Virus record (IMG/VR): IMGVR_UViG_3300023242_001002 | Location: 1 to 21,029 of that record | DNA from: a virus | Reading direction: 5' to 3' (one strand) | DNA length: 21,029 bases | Shown: positions 3,229-14,540 of the stretch, one piece after another | Position numbering within the stretch: position 1 is the stretch's first letter | Layout of the letters: each line of letters starts with the position of its first letter | Program-made: the position numbers and the translations under genes | Notes under the pieces: generated by a model | What the model saw: the letters and a program-made list of their open reading frames with translations, nothing else | Database searches by the model: none | What the model was told of the DNA's origin: nothing

Positions 3229-5391
3229 TTATATATTTGTTATTGTTAAATTATTGATTTTTCTAGTATAACCATTCCCTACACGAATTCTAGTTATTAC
3301 AATATCATCTATTGCTACTCTTGGTGTTGTTGAAAGAGTACAACTTACAGTAGTAATACTTCCTGAATGTGATATAGTTAAATTAGCGATACCTTCTGGA
3401 TTACCAGTTGATGCAAAAGGATTTGACCATTCATGAGTTGTACCATTTGATCTTTTTATTAAAAATTCAAATTTAATATTATTACCTGATGGTGTTCCTA
3501 AAATACCACCATTAGTTAGAAAATTACTAGCATTACCAGTTAAATGATTTATTTGGAATGTTAGTGTTGATTGAGTTGTAGTATTTATAGATTTAAATTT
3601 TCTATAATGATTTCTTTCTCCTGTTGCCGAAGTATAATTTACATTAGCTGCTGGAGTATTTGTTACATCAGCAAAATTACCAAAAGGAATTCCATATTCA
3701 GAAGCCAATAATGATGAATTTGGGTAATATAATGATCCATTTAATACTAAAAGACCAGTGTTATATTGCGAAGTAGCACCAACTAGACTTTGAATACCAT
3801 CCCAAGCATATGCAGTACTATTTATATTTGCATATAATAAAGGTGAATAATCTCTATCTTGTAATCTATTTACTTCACCTGAAAAATTTTCATTTTTTAA
3901 TGTACTAGTATCAATTATATTATAAATTAGAAAACCTGATCTGTTAACAATACCACCATTAAATGCTTTTACACTAAAAGGGTGTTTGATATCTATATTT
4001 GTTCTTAATTCACCACTATTTGTTAATGAGCCAATAACCGTAGTTACATTAATAGGTAATACAGATGTAATATTAATATCAGTATTTTGAGGATTAGTTG
4101 TTGTGTTTAAATTAGGTAATTGCTGTGAAGTACCAGTTAAAATACCTGCTCCTACTATAGAATTAGAAGTTGGATTACCTAGATTATTTCTACTTGGATA
4201 TGTTATTGCTGTTGCTGAATTACTATAAACGTTTTTATATACATTACTTGCTATAGCATTATAAGTTACATTACCACCAGTATGATATTTTACTCCAGAA
4301 ATATTTCTACTTCCTGTTAAACTAATATTATTAAATGTTTCAGCAGATAATGTGATTGAACTTGATTCAGAATCAAATATCCATCTACTAAAATTAGTTG
4401 TTCTATTAAATGTAACTCCACTATGTATAATTCTTAAATAATTATATCCTTCATTAAATATATTATTTGGAATATAGTAAGTACCTGTTCTATATAATAA
4501 TCCAGCAAAGTTATTTCCATTATCAAACCTAACTGGTCTTGCCTGACTTAAATTTAAATATGTTCCTGATGTTGCACCTGTATCTGATTGAATATCTATT
4601 GTTTCAATAATACTACCATTTAATTCTACTTGTATTAATCCTACATTTCCATCTTTAAATGCATTTGGTAAAAATGGTATTCCACTAACGCTTCCAGTAA
4701 CACTATCATTTAATATACCTGTAACATCATTCTGTGTTAGACCTTTTTGATTACCACTAATTAAATAAGTTCCATTTACATTTATTGGTGAACCATTACC
4801 TGCTGTTGATGCATTAGTATATCCAGAAATAATATTACTAGTACCAAATGATAATTTACCAGATACAAATGATCCTGAGCTTGACTGATCTGTTAATATA
4901 ATTGGTTGTGAAGGTGCTAATAATAATAATAACTCATTAATATCGTCTACTGCATCTGCAACTGTTGTTGTTCCAGTAAAAGGAAATAAGCCATCACTAT
5001 ACGTCCCATCACTAGGTATACCTAGTGCGCCACCATTAGATGAAATAGTAATTACATTACCAGAAGTTACTATGTCTACTCCACTACCACCAGATAATGA
5101 TCTTAAAAAACTAGTACTACCTGTACTTGCAACTTGATTATATATTAGTCCAGTACCACCACTTAAATTAGTTATAAATCCAGCACCACCACCTGCACTA
5201 TAAATGATTGTTCCTCCGCTATAAGTTAATGTTGCACCATCAAAAGGATTACTTGCATCAACAGGAACTCCTGCAATTACTAATCCACCAATTATTTTTG
5301 CAAAGTTAGTTGTACCTGATAATGATAAAGTATCACCACTTTGTTGTTGAAATTGTAAATTAGCTAATCTTGGTCTAGTAAAAAACGTCAT
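3229..5391 (-). CDS. Large phage virion/fibre-type structural protein (720 aa)
   Basis: A Gly/Ser/Thr/Asn-rich, beta-rich protein, largest of the fibre cluster. I place the start at 5391 (MTFFTRPRLANLQFQQQSG) rather than at the in-frame ATG at 5478. The 29 extra residues read through a perfect inverted repeat and do not resemble phage fibre N-termini, whereas LQFQQQSGDTLSLSG matches the N-terminal motif of the 362-1396 product. About residues 60-130 are Gly-rich (GGTGLIY...GGSGVDIVTSGNVITISSNG), a fibre-shaft-like stretch. After it comes DGTYSDGLFPFTGTTTVADAVDDINELL, a pattern often followed by large receptor-facing domains. No catalytic motif or membrane segment is seen. It has its own host-type promoter and an 85- to 110-nt structured leader, so it may head the fibre operon. 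Confidence 0.8.
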   Translation of the reverse strand: MTFFTRPRLANLQFQQQSGDTLSLSGTTNFAKIIGGLVIAGVPVDASNPFDGATLTYSGGTIIYSAGGGAGFITNLSGGTGLIYNQVASTGSTSFLRSLSGGSGVDIVTSGNVITISSNGGALGIPSDGTYSDGLFPFTGTTTVADAVDDINELLLLLAPSQPIILTDQSSSGSFVSGKLSFGTSNIISGYTNASTAGNGSPINVNGTYLISGNQKGLTQNDVTGILNDSVTGSVSGIPFLPNAFKDGNVGLIQVELNGSIIETIDIQSDTGATSGTYLNLSQARPVRFDNGNNFAGLLYRTGTYYIPNNIFNEGYNYLRIIHSGVTFNRTTNFSRWIFDSESSSITLSAETFNNISLTGSRNISGVKYHTGGNVTYNAIASNVYKNVYSNSATAITYPSRNNLGNPTSNSIVGAGILTGTSQQLPNLNTTTNPQNTDINITSVLPINVTTVIGSLTNSGELRTNIDIKHPFSVKAFNGGIVNRSGFLIYNIIDTSTLKNENFSGEVNRLQDRDYSPLLYANINSTAYAWDGIQSLVGATSQYNTGLLVLNGSLYYPNSSLLASEYGIPFGNFADVTNTPAANVNYTSATGERNHYRKFKSINTTTQSTLTFQINHLTGNASNFLTNGGILGTPSGNNIKFEFLIKRSNGTTHEWSNPFASTGNPEGIANLTISHSGSITTVSCTLSTTPRVAIDDIVITRIRVGNGYTRKINNLTITNI

Positions 5392-5422
5392 ATCTATATC
5401 TATATTTTTAAGTAAAAACCTC

Positions 5423-5442
5423 CATAACAAAAAGCCGTTATG
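5423..5442 (-). promoter_or_regulatory. Leader hairpin upstream of the 720-aa fibre gene
   Basis: On the minus strand CATAAC pairs with GTTATG across an 8-nt loop (6 bp, perfect). It lies 32-51 bases before the chosen start codon and directly upstream of GGAGG, the only Shine-Dalgarno-like sequence in this leader, which is too far from the ATG to act as a normal ribosome site. It may be a leader element, but no function is shown. Confidence 0.35.
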
Positions 5443-5448
5443 TGTTTT

Positions 5449-5478
5449 AAAAAAAATGGTTAAGTATAATTTAACCAT
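5449..5478 (-). terminator. Intrinsic terminator or attenuator in the fibre-gene leader
   Basis: The minus strand has ATGGTTAA, a 7-nt loop and TTAACCAT: a perfect 8-bp stem followed directly by a run of eight T. On the plus strand no T-run follows, so it is directional. It lies downstream of the promoter at 5506-5536 and upstream of the start at 5391. It could be a second terminator for the RNA operon, an attenuator of the fibre genes, or both. Confidence 0.6.
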
Positions 5479-5505: not shown

Positions 5506-5536
5506 CAAAAGTAGTAGGAAATAAAAAAACCCACAA
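5506..5536 (-). promoter_or_regulatory. Bacteroidota-type promoter for the fibre operon
   Basis: On the minus strand TTG is followed by 20 nt and TACTTTTG, which fits the flavobacterial sigma-A consensus TTG-N17-23-TAnnTTTG. Transcription would start near 5500. The TTG is in the 3' stem arm of the preceding terminator, so the end of the RNA operon and the start of the fibre operon are interlocked. The match is by eye only. Confidence 0.55.
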
Positions 5537-5555
5537 GATTTCTCTCATGGGTTTT
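5523..5555 (-). terminator. Rho-independent terminator of the tRNA/ncRNA operon
   Basis: The minus strand has AAAACCCA paired with TGGGTTTT (8 bp), an internal TG/TG mismatch, AGA/TCT (3 bp) and a GAAA tetraloop, followed by a T-run. It lies 20 bp downstream of the last tRNA, a normal position for ending the RNA transcript. Confidence 0.85.
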
Positions 5556-5574
5556 AATTATTAATAAAATATAG

Positions 5575-5661
5575 TTGCGAGTACAGGACTCGAACCTGTG
5601 TAAACCTTATAAGGGACTCCGTGCTTATGAGACAGGTGAGATGCCACTTCTCCAACTCGCA
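5575..5661 (-). tRNA. tRNA-Met(CAT)-like gene with an extra 15 nt in the anticodon arm
   Basis: Elements in 5'-3' order: acceptor TGCGAGT pairing with ACTCGCA, discriminator A; D-arm GAGA/TCTC with AGTGGCA loop; anticodon stem 5' strand CCTGT; loop CTCATAA (U33, anticodon CAT, A37), the usual Met loop; T-arm ACAGG-TTCGAGT-CCTGT. CCA is not encoded. The 3' anticodon strand is broken: after GC come 15 nt (ACGGAGTCCCTTATA) and then AGG. Removing them restores GCAGG, a full 5-bp stem, and a 5-nt variable loop TTTAC, giving a canonical 72-nt tRNA. Left in place, the stem has a C-C mismatch and a roughly 20-nt variable region. Long variable arms belong to Leu, Ser and bacterial Tyr tRNAs, not Met. 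It may be a pseudogene, a processed tRNA or a class II-like oddity. Confidence 0.75.
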
Positions 5662-5764: not shown

Positions 5765-5837
5765 TGGAGAGAGAAGGATTTGAACCTACGACCACCCCCT
5801 TTTATGGAGGCACTCTACCGGACTGAGTTACCTCTCC
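5765..5837 (-). tRNA. tRNA gene with an irregular anticodon loop, identity undetermined
   Basis: The acceptor is GGAGAGG pairing with TCTCTCC (one G-U) and discriminator A; positions 8-9 are TA. The D-arm is ACTC/GAGT with a GG-containing loop, and the T-arm is GTAGG-TTCAAAT-CCTTC (one T-T mismatch). Length is 73 nt without CCA. The anticodon arm is odd. CCTCC pairs fully with GGGGG only if the loop is six bases (ATAAAA). A seven-base loop (ATAAAAG) would give anticodon AAA, an unmodified A34 rarely seen in bacteria, and a C-T mismatch at the stem base. The amino acid therefore cannot be assigned. It lies between the large structured RNA and the tRNA-Met-like gene, presumably in the same transcript. 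Confidence 0.75.
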
Positions 5838-5844
5838 AAATTTA

Positions 5845-6712
5845 AATAAGCCTGAGAATACAGCTATAAACACGAACCTTTCAGAAGATTATAATAAGCC
5901 AAAGCTCTTCCTTCTTTATCCACTACAGTTTCCCATAGTAATCCGTGATTGCAAGTAAATTACGTCAACCAATCGTATCGTTAAAAGTTTCTTCTGCTAC
6001 TTCATATCTACTCTACTTATTTCAAAGCAAACTAAGGAGATGCCCCCAATAAACATCAGTAACACACATTCAGGCTTGCGACCATTATGCCCCGTCTTAA
6101 TAACGAGTTTTGCAACTTTAGCTTCTAACGCTCTAGCACTTATGCTGTTTATGTACCATAATAGATTAAGAGTCTACTGCTAAATTTAATTAGCTAATTT
6201 TTATCTCATCGGAGTCTAGAAGTTGTGGCTAGAGAGTAGATTTCTACTTTTTGAATAGAAAATACTACACAACTTCCTGTGAGTACCACCTCACCGTTTC
6301 AAACCCTCCATCGCTTATCAATAGGACGAATCCTTTGTTTCACGTTATGGTTTAAGTTTTTCAACTGATTACCGCCCTACATTGTTGGTACAATTATGGA
6401 CTATAACCTTACACTTATTTTTATTCTATTTTCATAGTCAATCCCGAATTCCTTACTTCGGAATCACTGCCTCAGTTAACCGCTAGGCGCACCTGAATAT
6501 CTTAAACAGTGAATAGTGTATTGCTTACAAGTATTATATTTCTATAATCGACCTAATAGATGTTAAGAACTCTACTAAATCTTTATCCTCGTTTCCGAGT
6601 TTATCTTCCCATAAAAGGGCTTTTTCTTCCGAAGAAGAATAGAGAATATAAGCATCCTCAAATATTTTTATTTAATATGTCAAATTTTTAATTGCTGTAC
6701 TTCTTTTAAGTA
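5845..6712 (-). ncRNA. Putative large structured phage RNA (about 870 nt), GOLLD/ROOL-like setting
   Basis: This stretch lacks a usable ORF, has about 33-42% G+C on four lines counted by eye (about 28% in a neighbouring coding line), and is full of strong minus-strand hairpins. Examples: TTCTTC-TTCG-GAAGAA (6624-6639), CTCG-GAAA-CGAG (6588-6599), an 8-bp stem with 8-nt loop (6441-6464), AGGA-TTCG-TCCT (6323-6334), GTGAG/CTCAC (6279-6294), AAGTTGTG/CACAACTT closing a nested 6-bp stem (6220-6275), and an 8-bp helix with a GAAA loop (5921-5940). Several are capped by UUCG or GNRA tetraloops, a mark of selected RNA structure. A promoter begins just upstream, two tRNAs follow and a terminator ends the unit. 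GOLLD and ROOL are large ornate RNAs found in phages and prophages, often near tRNAs; membership is inference. I saw no tmRNA, RNase P or clear intron signature. Confidence 0.6.
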
Positions 6713-6717
6713 CGATG

Positions 6718-6748
6718 CAAATCTAATTCTTTTTTTCTTTATTACAAA
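6718..6748 (-). promoter_or_regulatory. Strong Bacteroidota-type promoter for the ncRNA/tRNA operon
   Basis: The minus strand reads TTTTG, 19 nt, then TAGATTTG. This fully matches the -33 TTTG and -7 TAnnTTTG boxes of bacteroidote sigma-A promoters at an allowed spacing. Transcription should start near 6712, at a hairpin in which GTACTT pairs with AAGTAC. There is no gene start nearby, which is why I treat the downstream 1.2 kb as one RNA transcript. Confidence 0.7.
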
Positions 6749-6837: not shown

Positions 6838-8616
6838 TTATTTTTTAATGTTCGAGCTATTTTTACTACTCATTTCATTAAGTTGTTTTCTAATATCACT
6901 TTCTGATTCAGAAGATATCACAAATTTACTTAAATTTTTCATTTTTGCAAACTCATCCCTCATATTATCTTGTAATATATTGATATTTTTTTTCTGTTCT
7001 TCATTAAATACCTCATTTACAATTGGTTTAATTTCTACTTCTTTTTTAGGTAATTCACTAACTTCTTTTTCTTCCGCTTGATTTGTTGCAGTATCGCCAC
7101 TAATAGTATCTTTATAGTTTACTAAGTCTCGTCCTTCTTTATTTGCATCCATATTTCTATTCATGGCTGCAATCTTTTCACTCAACTTATCAATTTGACC
7201 ATCAGTAGCAATATTTGGTTCATCATCTTCATAGTCGCCCTTTTTATTTCGATAAGAGTAATCACTATCTCTCACAACAATTTTTACTGAATCATTATCG
7301 AATATAGCATCTTCAAATTTCTGACCATCTGCAGCAAATCTAGCTTTAAGTATTGCAATATTGGCAAGTCCTGCTCTTTTTTGTTCAGATGTTTTAGCAA
7401 CAGACATTAAAAAATGTGTTTTTTGTGCTCGTTTAATACTTCCACCCATTTGTGCAGTACCTATAAATTCACTAGCACTACCATCATTAGAGTTACTTCC
7501 TAAACCACTTCTATTTGCCTGTATTGCAGTCCAACAAGGTATATTATAATCAGATGCAATTCCTTCAAAAGCTTTAATAATACCCTCTTCTGCTTTATTT
7601 TGATCGAAATATTTCTCATGTGGTTCAACACAATCTATATAATCCAAGGCAAGTAAATTAAAACTTATACCCCACTTTTTCTTATATCGATCCATCCATT
7701 GACGTATCTTAGGTATAGTGATACCTTCTTGAGGGAATTTCTTTATAATTAACTTACCTAAGTTTCCATTATTTTGATAATCTTTGACACGCCTTCCGAC
7801 AGATTCTAGATTATCATTCATCTCGCTTAGTTTAGTATCAGACCATATCGCAAAGTGCTTACGTCTAATTTCATCTTCAGTGTCTTCAAATACTACATGA
7901 AGAACATTTTTACCTAATGAATGAGCTTCATTTGCAATTTTAGTTAATGCTGTTGATTTACCAACTCCAGTACCAGCAAGTATGATACCAATTTCACCTT
8001 TGCCTAGACCACCACCCATTAAATTATCAATAGCTAGTATTCCAGTTCCAATTGGTTCTCTAAAATTTACTTGTAAGGCTCTTTCAATATCATGAAAAAT
8101 CTCAATACCTTCATCTTCATCACTACCAATATCACTAATTCTTTTAGTCTTTTGATCGATTTTATAATTTATTTCATCAGTCAAGCCATGTTTAATATTT
8201 GACATTATAAATGCAGCAAGTTCATGATATTCACCTTGTTTTATGAAATTGTATACAGATTTTTGTACTGTATCACCATCATAGTCTAGGTTTTTATTTA
8301 AAACCCTATCATTCCAATTTTTAATGTTCTGAGCAATACCTAATAATATTTCTTCATCTACTGGATTACTTACTTGTTTAAATTTAGTTATTGCATGAAA
8401 GATACTCTTATTTTGTAAGTTTGGTGTTTTACCATATTCATTAAAATATTCTCTTAATACAGTAAAAAATCTTCTATGGTTAGGATCATCAAAGTATTCA
8501 GTCTTAAGAAATGGAAATATTTTATTTCCAAAATCAGGTTCAGTTAATATTTGCCATAACACTTTTAATTGATAGCCACTTCCAAGGTAGCCATCAATTG
8601 TATGCTCTTCTGTCAT
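6838..8616 (-). CDS. 41: Replicative DNA helicase, DnaB/T4 gp41 type (592 aa)
   Basis: This is the hexameric 5'-3' helicase that unwinds the phage fork and normally partners with a primase and with gp32. A small N-terminal helical domain spans about residues 1-150. The RecA-like core has Walker A GTGVGKST (215-222), an acidic FEDTEDE segment (243-249), Walker B LLALDYID (321-328), QANRSG (366-371), which is the H3-like sensor, and AQMGGSIKRA with ILKARF near the arginine-finger region. T4 gp41 is about 475 residues. The extra length here is a charged, low-complexity tail from about 455 to 592 (EEKEVSELPKKEVEIK and similar), perhaps a partner-binding arm. It is the last gene of the replication run, 39 bp after its neighbour; TATAAATA (plus strand) lies 21 bp upstream of its start. 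Confidence 0.93.
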   Translation of the reverse strand: MTEEHTIDGYLGSGYQLKVLWQILTEPDFGNKIFPFLKTEYFDDPNHRRFFTVLREYFNEYGKTPNLQNKSIFHAITKFKQVSNPVDEEILLGIAQNIKNWNDRVLNKNLDYDGDTVQKSVYNFIKQGEYHELAAFIMSNIKHGLTDEINYKIDQKTKRISDIGSDEDEGIEIFHDIERALQVNFREPIGTGILAIDNLMGGGLGKGEIGIILAGTGVGKSTALTKIANEAHSLGKNVLHVVFEDTEDEIRRKHFAIWSDTKLSEMNDNLESVGRRVKDYQNNGNLGKLIIKKFPQEGITIPKIRQWMDRYKKKWGISFNLLALDYIDCVEPHEKYFDQNKAEEGIIKAFEGIASDYNIPCWTAIQANRSGLGSNSNDGSASEFIGTAQMGGSIKRAQKTHFLMSVAKTSEQKRAGLANIAILKARFAADGQKFEDAIFDNDSVKIVVRDSDYSYRNKKGDYEDDEPNIATDGQIDKLSEKIAAMNRNMDANKEGRDLVNYKDTISGDTATNQAEEKEVSELPKKEVEIKPIVNEVFNEEQKKNINILQDNMRDEFAKMKNLSKFVISSESESDIRKQLNEMSSKNSSNIKK

Positions 8617-13142: not shown

Positions 13143-14540
13143 TTAAACTATTTCAGTTGATGTTACAGTGAAATTTATTGGTTTTTTTACATCGTAAAGA
13201 CTACCACTAGACATTTTAACTTCTAAGAAATAATCTTGAGGAATTAACCATGATGTATCTAATAAAAACTCATATCCTGCTGTAGTTCGATCAGCTTTAG
13301 TAAATGGAATTACTTCTATCTGATGATTCACATCTTGCTTTACAAATAATCTATATTCAATATCTAATGGTAAGTTGTTATTTTGGTCTTGGTAAAGTTG
13401 CCTAGCATCAATTAATATTCTTCTAGTATTACTAGCTTGTATTTGTTCATTTGAACTTATGCCTATAACATTGAAAAAATAATTATCAAAATTTATTCTT
13501 TTAGATAAATCAAAATTTAAATATTGTTCTCCGTTTATTAGATAAAATTGTTGAGTAATATTTTTATTAATTCCATTAACAGTAATATTCCATATATCAT
13601 TAAAAATTACTTGATCTGGATATTCTAAACTAGAAACAGAATAAGATACTTTATACACTCCCTTTCTTATTTGTTGAATAGTATTTCCTGTTAGTATGTT
13701 AATTTCACTTCCTTCATAATCATTGATAGTCACACTATTTACAATAATGTCAACACTTTTACCACCTGCATTAGCATATAAGTAAAGATTATTATTCTTA
13801 TCCATATAAAAATACTCTCTATCATCCTCTATAAGATCGTTAACTATAGTTTCGACATATGGTTCATAAAAAGTAGGAGAGTCCTTTACATGGAATGCTA
13901 CCGCTTGTCTTTGAAGTGTTGTAGTTGTTTCTAAATCATTAGTAAATTTAATAGCTAATCCAAATGTTGTTCCTGTAAATCCTGTTACCCCTGAAACAAA
14001 TATTCTTGAGTTTATATAATCAGTTATATCAACTTTAATATCTTCACTACCATCCTGAAAATCAATGGTTTGTAAAATAGTTGACCCACTATTAATACCT
14101 CCTTCAGTTGACCATTCTACACCTGTTTTTCTTTCAAACCAATTAGATGCTTGTCTTGGTATGCTAGGAAATTCTTCTTCAATATAAATAAAATCATATC
14201 CATTACCTTCGTCCCAATCTTCTTCAACATTATAAAGTTCCAAAGTAAAACTAGAGGCACGTTGTGTTTCATTATCAGCATATCTAGTTCCAACTAATTC
14301 AGGTATAAATCTAATAGTATTAGTTAAATTAAGATAATGAGATTGTATTAAATTAGGATTTAGGAAACCAGAATTTAACTTATCTACTAGTGGTTGTAAA
14401 TCAATATCAAAAATAAATCGTGAAACCTTTTCTTGTAAAGTTCCATAAAAAATTTCAGAAACTGGGTTTTGAGAATTGTTAGTTCTATTATCTTCAATTA
14501 GTGTATTATTTTTTTTAAAATATGATCTAAATCTACCCAT
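13143..14540 (-). CDS. Probable phage structural protein with DNRLRE-like segment (465 aa)
   Basis: Composition is Asn/Ile/Thr-rich and beta-strand-like, without signal peptide or membrane helices. Residues about 98-205 resemble a DNRLRE-type beta domain. They include YNVEEDWDEGNGYDFIYIEE, a GVEWSTEGG turn, a hydrophobic-polar strand with KVDITDYINSRI, and then GTTFGLAIKF. That domain is common in extracellular and viral surface proteins. The rest consists of strand-rich segments with no enzymatic motif. It lies 35 bp after the 591-aa gene and is the last gene before the gp32 control region. A virion role (neck, fibre or decoration) is inferred from composition and neighbours; the true family is not known to me. 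Confidence 0.7.
   Translation of the reverse strand: MGRFRSYFKKNNTLIEDNRTNNSQNPVSEIFYGTLQEKVSRFIFDIDLQPLVDKLNSGFLNPNLIQSHYLNLTNTIRFIPELVGTRYADNETQRASSFTLELYNVEEDWDEGNGYDFIYIEEEFPSIPRQASNWFERKTGVEWSTEGGINSGSTILQTIDFQDGSEDIKVDITDYINSRIFVSGVTGFTGTTFGLAIKFTNDLETTTTLQRQAVAFHVKDSPTFYEPYVETIVNDLIEDDREYFYMDKNNNLYLYANAGGKSVDIIVNSVTINDYEGSEINILTGNTIQQIRKGVYKVSYSVSSLEYPDQVIFNDIWNITVNGINKNITQQFYLINGEQYLNFDLSKRINFDNYFFNVIGISSNEQIQASNTRRILIDARQLYQDQNNNLPLDIEYRLFVKQDVNHQIEVIPFTKADRTTAGYEFLLDTSWLIPQDYFLEVKMSSGSLYDVKKPINFTVTSTEIV

Follow-up and report, generated by a model that had tools for sequence, protein, structure and literature searches.

The window analysed here is a virus record of 21,029 bases whose main genes all lie on the minus strand, including genes that encode a DnaB-like helicase resembling T4 gp41, a phage exonuclease and a recombinase similar to UvsX. 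It derives from a T4-like phage whose host is probably in the Bacteroidota. More than 1,300 bases separate the helicase gene from a large ORF (Table 1), and no usable ORF was found in this gap, the longest stop-free runs within 5849-6748 being 58 codons on the minus strand and 74 codons on the plus strand. The G+C content of the RNA region is about 0.37, versus about 0.29 in its surroundings, and its folding energy is -216 kcal/mol, versus -193.5 kcal/mol for shuffled sequences (z = -3.1; 0 of 20 shuffles were equally low). Hairpins with a UUCG tetraloop (CTTCTTCGGAAG, 6624-6639 region) and with a GAAA tetraloop (CTCGGAAACGAG, within 6581-6604) are both present. A preliminary description of this DNA had claimed a large structured phage RNA with no usable ORF, raised G+C and strong hairpins, several of them closed by such tetraloops, ending in two tRNAs and a terminator, and all of these features were recovered.

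Table 1 Positions of the GOLLD unit and of its neighbouring genes in the window
Feature	Position	Strand	Basis
DnaB-like (gp41-type) helicase gene	6838-8616	minus	
σABfr-type (Bacteroidota) promoter TTTG-N19-TAGATTTG	6718-6748	minus	Exact match; in place in L003 and L009
Hairpin at predicted RNA 5′ end, GTACTT AAAAG AAGTAC	6697-6713	minus	Sequence and paired changes
GOLLD 5′ domain (putative cap)	6278-6713	minus	Match to model R1 at 6518-6627, E = 1.2e-8; 19/107 pairs covary
Cap hairpin GAGGATGCTTATATTCTC, loop GCUUAU at 6648-6653	6642-6659	minus	Loop contact covaries in 24 other GOLLDs
GAAA-loop hairpin AUAAAC-UCGGAAACGA-GGAUAAAG	6581-6604	minus	Best-conserved motif in GOLLD 5′ domains
GUAAGC, partner of the GCUUAU cap loop	6523-6528	minus	Loop-contact comparison
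GOLLD 3′ domain	5849-6277	minus	Rfam RF02032, 172.8 bits
CUCUAGC, 5′ strand of long-range helix closing the linker	6228-6234	minus	7/7 pairs with 6131-6137
Variable linker	6142-6220	minus	Alignment to other GOLLDs
Anticodon-arm-like hairpin GUAGA-CUCUUAA-UCUAU in the linker	6161-6177	minus	Stem covaries in L003 and L009
GCUAGAG, 3′ strand of linker-closing helix	6131-6137	minus	Pairs with 6228-6234
tRNA directly after GOLLD, 6-nt anticodon loop	5764-5837	minus	Rfam tRNA, 47.7 bits
tRNA, anticodon CAU, unusually long variable region AGTCCCTTATAAGGTTT	5574-5661	minus	Rfam and ARAGORN
Intrinsic terminator closing the unit	5523-5555	minus	13-bp stem and T run
Large unassigned ORF	3229-5478		No PHROGs family

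The TTTG-N19 promoter of the preliminary description is also in place. The match alone is not significant (three such matches in the window versus 2.0 expected), and its position is kept as TTTG-N19-TACATTTG in contigs L003 and L009, which represent two lineages about 75% alike. The third position of its -7 element is a G, a base almost absent there from mapped F. johnsoniae promoters (PMC6847099). The stem of the hairpin at the predicted 5′ end is retained through paired changes, reading GTTCT..AGAAC in L003 and GTTCTT..AAGAAC in L009. At the other end of the RNA, the first tRNA starts after a gap of 11 nt; its anticodon arm reads CCTCC-ATAAAA-GGGGG, and ARAGORN assigned no amino acid to it. 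In the near-identical contig L002, a change at 5808 gives the counterpart of this tRNA a perfect stem, and the odd 6-nt loop is therefore no single misread. Relatives carry an ordinary tRNA-Met where the window has the CAU tRNA with the long variable region.

The Rfam covariance-model scan suggested in the preliminary description gave the RNA its name. The GOLLD model (RF02032) matched the minus strand over all of its 416 positions (E = 2.6e-47), with a score only 23 bits over the curated threshold of 150 bits; close relatives scored 196-208 bits and other GOLLDs up to 322 bits. Among 4227 Rfam families searched at E ≤ 1, only GOLLD, tRNA and chance matches were obtained, and ROOL, tmRNA, RNase P and introns, having no Rfam match, were rejected. 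BLASTn comparisons of the RNA with 50,697 phage records returned a tRNA match only, those with plasmids returned no match, and no earlier annotation had flagged this copy. GOLLD RNAs are about 800 nt or more in length, split by a variable linker, and are located in phages or prophages, often near tRNAs; the window RNA runs from 6713 to 5849 with such a linker and lies among phage genes with two tRNAs downstream. Though divergent, it is an ordinary member of a family already known, and very probably a full-length GOLLD RNA (~865 nt) from a T4-like phage. The preliminary description had seen a likeness to GOLLD and ROOL and had left the choice between a divergent member and a new class; the divergent GOLLD is borne out by Rfam and by the homology of the 5′ half, and ROOL and the new class were abandoned. 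For the family name Rfam is the sole external authority. Because its GOLLD model spans the 3′ domain only, the remaining 440 bases (6278-6713) were given a test of their own, and the 5′-domain tests below are those of the present analysis.

Comparative analyses of relatives carrying the gp41 helicase found GOLLD above threshold at the corresponding place in 8 of 12 loci. With near-identical copies set aside, the gp41-promoter-GOLLD-tRNA unit occurs in three lineages (the window, L003 and L009), which are about 75% identical from the end of gp41 through the promoter and GOLLD. The preliminary description had also proposed looking for covariation among homologues next to gp41, and the outcome was positive. 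In the 5′-domain alignment of this clade (A3, five sequences, structure by RNAalifold), 95.5% of the cells are paired and 19 of 107 pairs have changed on both sides, values that come from three real lineages, a modest depth, with the structure derived from the same alignment. The contrast with controls is large: 0 of 500 shuffles reached either value, and slid alignments gave at most 6 double-changed pairs and 52% paired cells. Both halves belong to GOLLD, the secondary structure and the promoter are conserved, and the region is non-coding.

A pattern search for the GOLLD 3′ end yielded 74 viral contigs, whose 5′ domains had no BLASTn similarity to the 5′ domain of the window. These domains contain the motif AUAAAC-NNNGAAANNN-GGAUAAAG, and the loop of the hairpin before it has its complement in a GUANNCAA segment farther along the RNA. 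Across 24 diverse GOLLDs outside the window's clade, all 144 cells of this loop contact are paired and 22 changes affect both sides, counts that overstate independence because the representatives share ancestry. The variants include GCUUA/UAAGC, GUGUA/UACAC, GUCUA/UAGAC, GCCUA/UAGGC, GCAUA/UAUGC and GUAUA/UAUAC; the result was reached in 0 of 500 shuffles, and slid controls were at most 55% paired. A covariance model of a 110-position 5′ region (R1), built from other GOLLDs without the window's clade, found the window (Table 1) and, at E values of 6e-7 to 2e-4, the other two lineages. The R1 register in the window lands on an inserted hairpin, and the pairing of the loop GCUUAU with GUAAGC was set by eye. 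The comparisons exclude four genome contigs, L089, L091, L093 and L100, whose pattern matches seemed fortuitous. A search of viral contigs with the motif AUAAACUNGGAAACNAGGAUAAAG gave 70 contigs; 67 occurrences were read, 52 of them had enough downstream sequence, and 37 of these 52 show the GOLLD 3′ motifs by a simple pattern. Most of the tested contigs without that pattern are GOLLDs by Rfam, at 262-284 bits. Judged from its sequence, the 5′ half of the window RNA is a homologue of the GOLLD 5′ cap domain.

Several RNAs with the cap motif (L111, L112, L113, L117, L124, L134, L140, L145 and L147) have no boxA in their leaders, an element described below, and in those tested the GOLLD 3′ match was below the Rfam threshold (116.5 bits in L124) or was not obtained (L111 and L113). 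This group is a putative divergent GOLLD branch missed by Rfam. Unannotated GOLLDs were also observed in Acinetobacter phage AM24 (L184, record positions 25213-25581, 214.7 bits) and in a 634-kb uncultured phage (L185, 287.3 bits). The AM24 copy retains the cap contact as GUGUA/UACAC, and a cultured GOLLD-bearing phage therefore exists.

A second long-range contact closes the linker. Over 40 GOLLD representatives this helix has on average 6.5 of 7 pairs, a value somewhat favoured because the best candidate was picked in each RNA, versus 3.67 when segments were swapped between RNAs. The 40 RNAs contain 28 distinct 3′ segments, and perfect 7-pair helices include GCUUAUC/GAUAAGC, GUUACCU/AGGUAAC, CUUCGGG/CCCGAAG and CGUCACC/GGUGACG. 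The covariation is compatible with a contact inside one chain as well as with one between chains. This copy shows the weakly conserved 5′ half to be a homologous domain, alignable by means of two covarying long-range contacts, and both contacts provide ready-made tests by compensatory mutation.

Within the linker of the window, the anticodon-arm-like hairpin is retained with paired changes, as GUACA-CUCUUAA-UGUAU in L003 and CUUCU-CUGUUAA-AGAAG in L009. The tRNA model matched the window linker below threshold (12.5 bits, E = 3.3), over positions from the D-arm to the anticodon arm, and had no match in the linker of L005; ARAGORN found no tRNA in the window linker, and a true tRNA was rejected. 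A decayed tRNA is plausible. L003 and L005, otherwise near-identical GOLLDs, differ by a 14-nt linker deletion that removes a D-arm-like hairpin and spares the anticodon-arm-like one. In Mycobacterium, a GOLLD located in a tRNA cluster is known to contain a pseudo-tRNA (PMC6582537); those hosts are actinobacterial, and that pseudo-tRNA was recognised by prediction, whereas the fragment in the window is below threshold.

In cryo-EM, GOLLD env-38 is a closed, hollow 14-mer cage with the 5′ domains as caps, the 3′ domains as rings and a disordered linker inside (PMC12286853), and GOLLD is one of very few natural RNA-only cages. The window RNA shares with this known GOLLD (RF02032; env-38) the whole-model 3′ domain, the homologous 5′ cap, the variable linker, the phage location, the tRNA neighbourhood, the lack of an ORF and a length of about 865 nt. 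It differs in its divergent sequence, in an additional hairpin, inserted in the cap, that separates the GCUUAU from the GAAA hairpin, in a linker that holds at most a tRNA-like fragment, and in the adjoining T4-type gp41 helicase gene. With this copy, GOLLD now also covers a lineage of T4-like phages whose promoter is of the Bacteroidota type. Host RNA polymerase would transcribe GOLLD and the two tRNAs from the σABfr-type promoter and stop at the terminator, and 5′-end processing of the first tRNA would release the 3′ end of GOLLD. Since both domains and the tested contacts are conserved, the window RNA likely forms the same 14-chain cage; the cap would be built by the 5′ domain, the ring by the 3′ domain, and the interior would hold the variable linker. 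This assembly is assigned by homology, and not by mapping the known intermolecular bridges (L20:J13/15, L21a and L21b) residue by residue. PMC7567579 reports that GOLLD levels go up in the lytic phase and that an L. brevis prophage can do without the RNA. The role that we chose, a lytic-phase RNA compartment holding small translation-related RNA or RNP cargo, is a tentative guess at what the cage may do.

A role mainly as leader and processing scaffold for the downstream tRNAs, and not as a cage, is unlikely. The short distance to the first tRNA and the closure of the unit by a tRNA and a terminator would suit such a scaffold; however, the size and conservation of GOLLD far exceed the needs of tRNA processing, and the downstream tRNAs vary between relatives while GOLLD persists. 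It is quite unlikely that the RNA is a decayed GOLLD remnant which no longer folds or assembles: its score is the lowest among close relatives and the adjoining tRNAs are odd, but the three lineages keep their pairs with many compensatory changes, and the promoter is intact, as are both long-range contacts.

That the RNA only resembles GOLLD and represents a separate, new class of giant phage RNAs is very improbable. The BLASTn result against phage records, limited to a tRNA, and the position of the 5′ half outside the Rfam model would fit a new class, but the Rfam match is full-length, and the 5′ half was found by a model of other GOLLDs and shares their loop contact. A self-splicing intron or a ROOL RNA in place of GOLLD is almost certainly wrong. 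ROOL, which likewise forms cages (PMC12286853), has the size class and the phage and tRNA neighbourhood in common with the window RNA but differs in sequence and structure, and Rfam gave no match to either kind. The preliminary description had taken a GACTAT/ATAGTC pair as a hint of an intron; the pair exists (6434-6439 and 6399-6404), but L003 and L009 read GAGCAT or GAGTAT against an unchanged ATAGTC, so the hint fails because the pairing is not conserved in relatives.

Leaders of related GOLLDs frequently carry the element GTTCTTT[GA]A, written GTTCTTTGA in the leader RNA. Among GOLLDs with the cap motif, 48 non-redundant leaders were compared, and 35 of them have the element upstream of GOLLD, versus 0.28 expected from dinucleotide shuffles (an initial count gave 30 of 45, versus 1.7 expected); these include L016, L018, L021, L033, L044, L086, L103, L105 and L120. 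A TTG-N17-23-TANNTTTG promoter is present in 21 of the 48 leaders, versus 0.72 expected, and the distance from promoter to element is 26-28 nt in 14 of the 19 leaders having both. In rRNA antitermination, boxA serves as the site for NusB/NusE (S10) (PMC4807359). Because GOLLD-bearing MAGs had no 16S leader assembled, other genomes from the phylum to which a GOLLD-bearing Saprospiraceae MAG belongs were used, and GTTCTTT[GA] occurs in 12 of their 17 readable 16S rRNA leaders, mostly 80-175 nt before 16S. The motif of the GOLLD leaders, compared as sequence, resembles boxA in form and location. In the literature that was searched, no paper linked boxA with GOLLD, and the association is apparently new.

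In contrast to these related contigs, the clade of the window lacks the canonical element: neither the window nor L003 has GTTCTTT[GA]A in the stretch from promoter to RNA, and the window leader reads TTTGACATATT at this place, at best half a boxA. We slightly favour a scheme in which GOLLDs of Bacteroidota phages are transcribed like rRNA through boxA and host Nus factors, and in which the clade of the window kept the promoter, lost boxA and gained the 5′ hairpin. With boxA at a fixed distance of 26-28 nt from a host-type promoter, host Nus factors would carry polymerase through the long untranslated RNA; such Nus-aided read-through, if true, would supply GOLLD in bulk for cage assembly and offers a concrete hypothesis for a high GOLLD copy number.

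The linkers of other GOLLDs are varied in content. tRNAs inside the linker are known for some GOLLDs, and whole tRNAs were found in the linkers of seven representatives, namely Asn, Phe, Leu, Ser, Lys, Cys and one typed Pyl. In the GOLLD linker of L037 (~13600-13670, minus strand), a T-arm and acceptor 3′ strand (GCTGGTTCGAGTCCAGCCTCCCCCGCCA) precede a 5′ half (GGGGGGAGTAGCC), and the linker has an Rfam beta_tmRNA match of 24 bits; from this order, the piece seems to be a circularly permuted tRNA or tmRNA-like.
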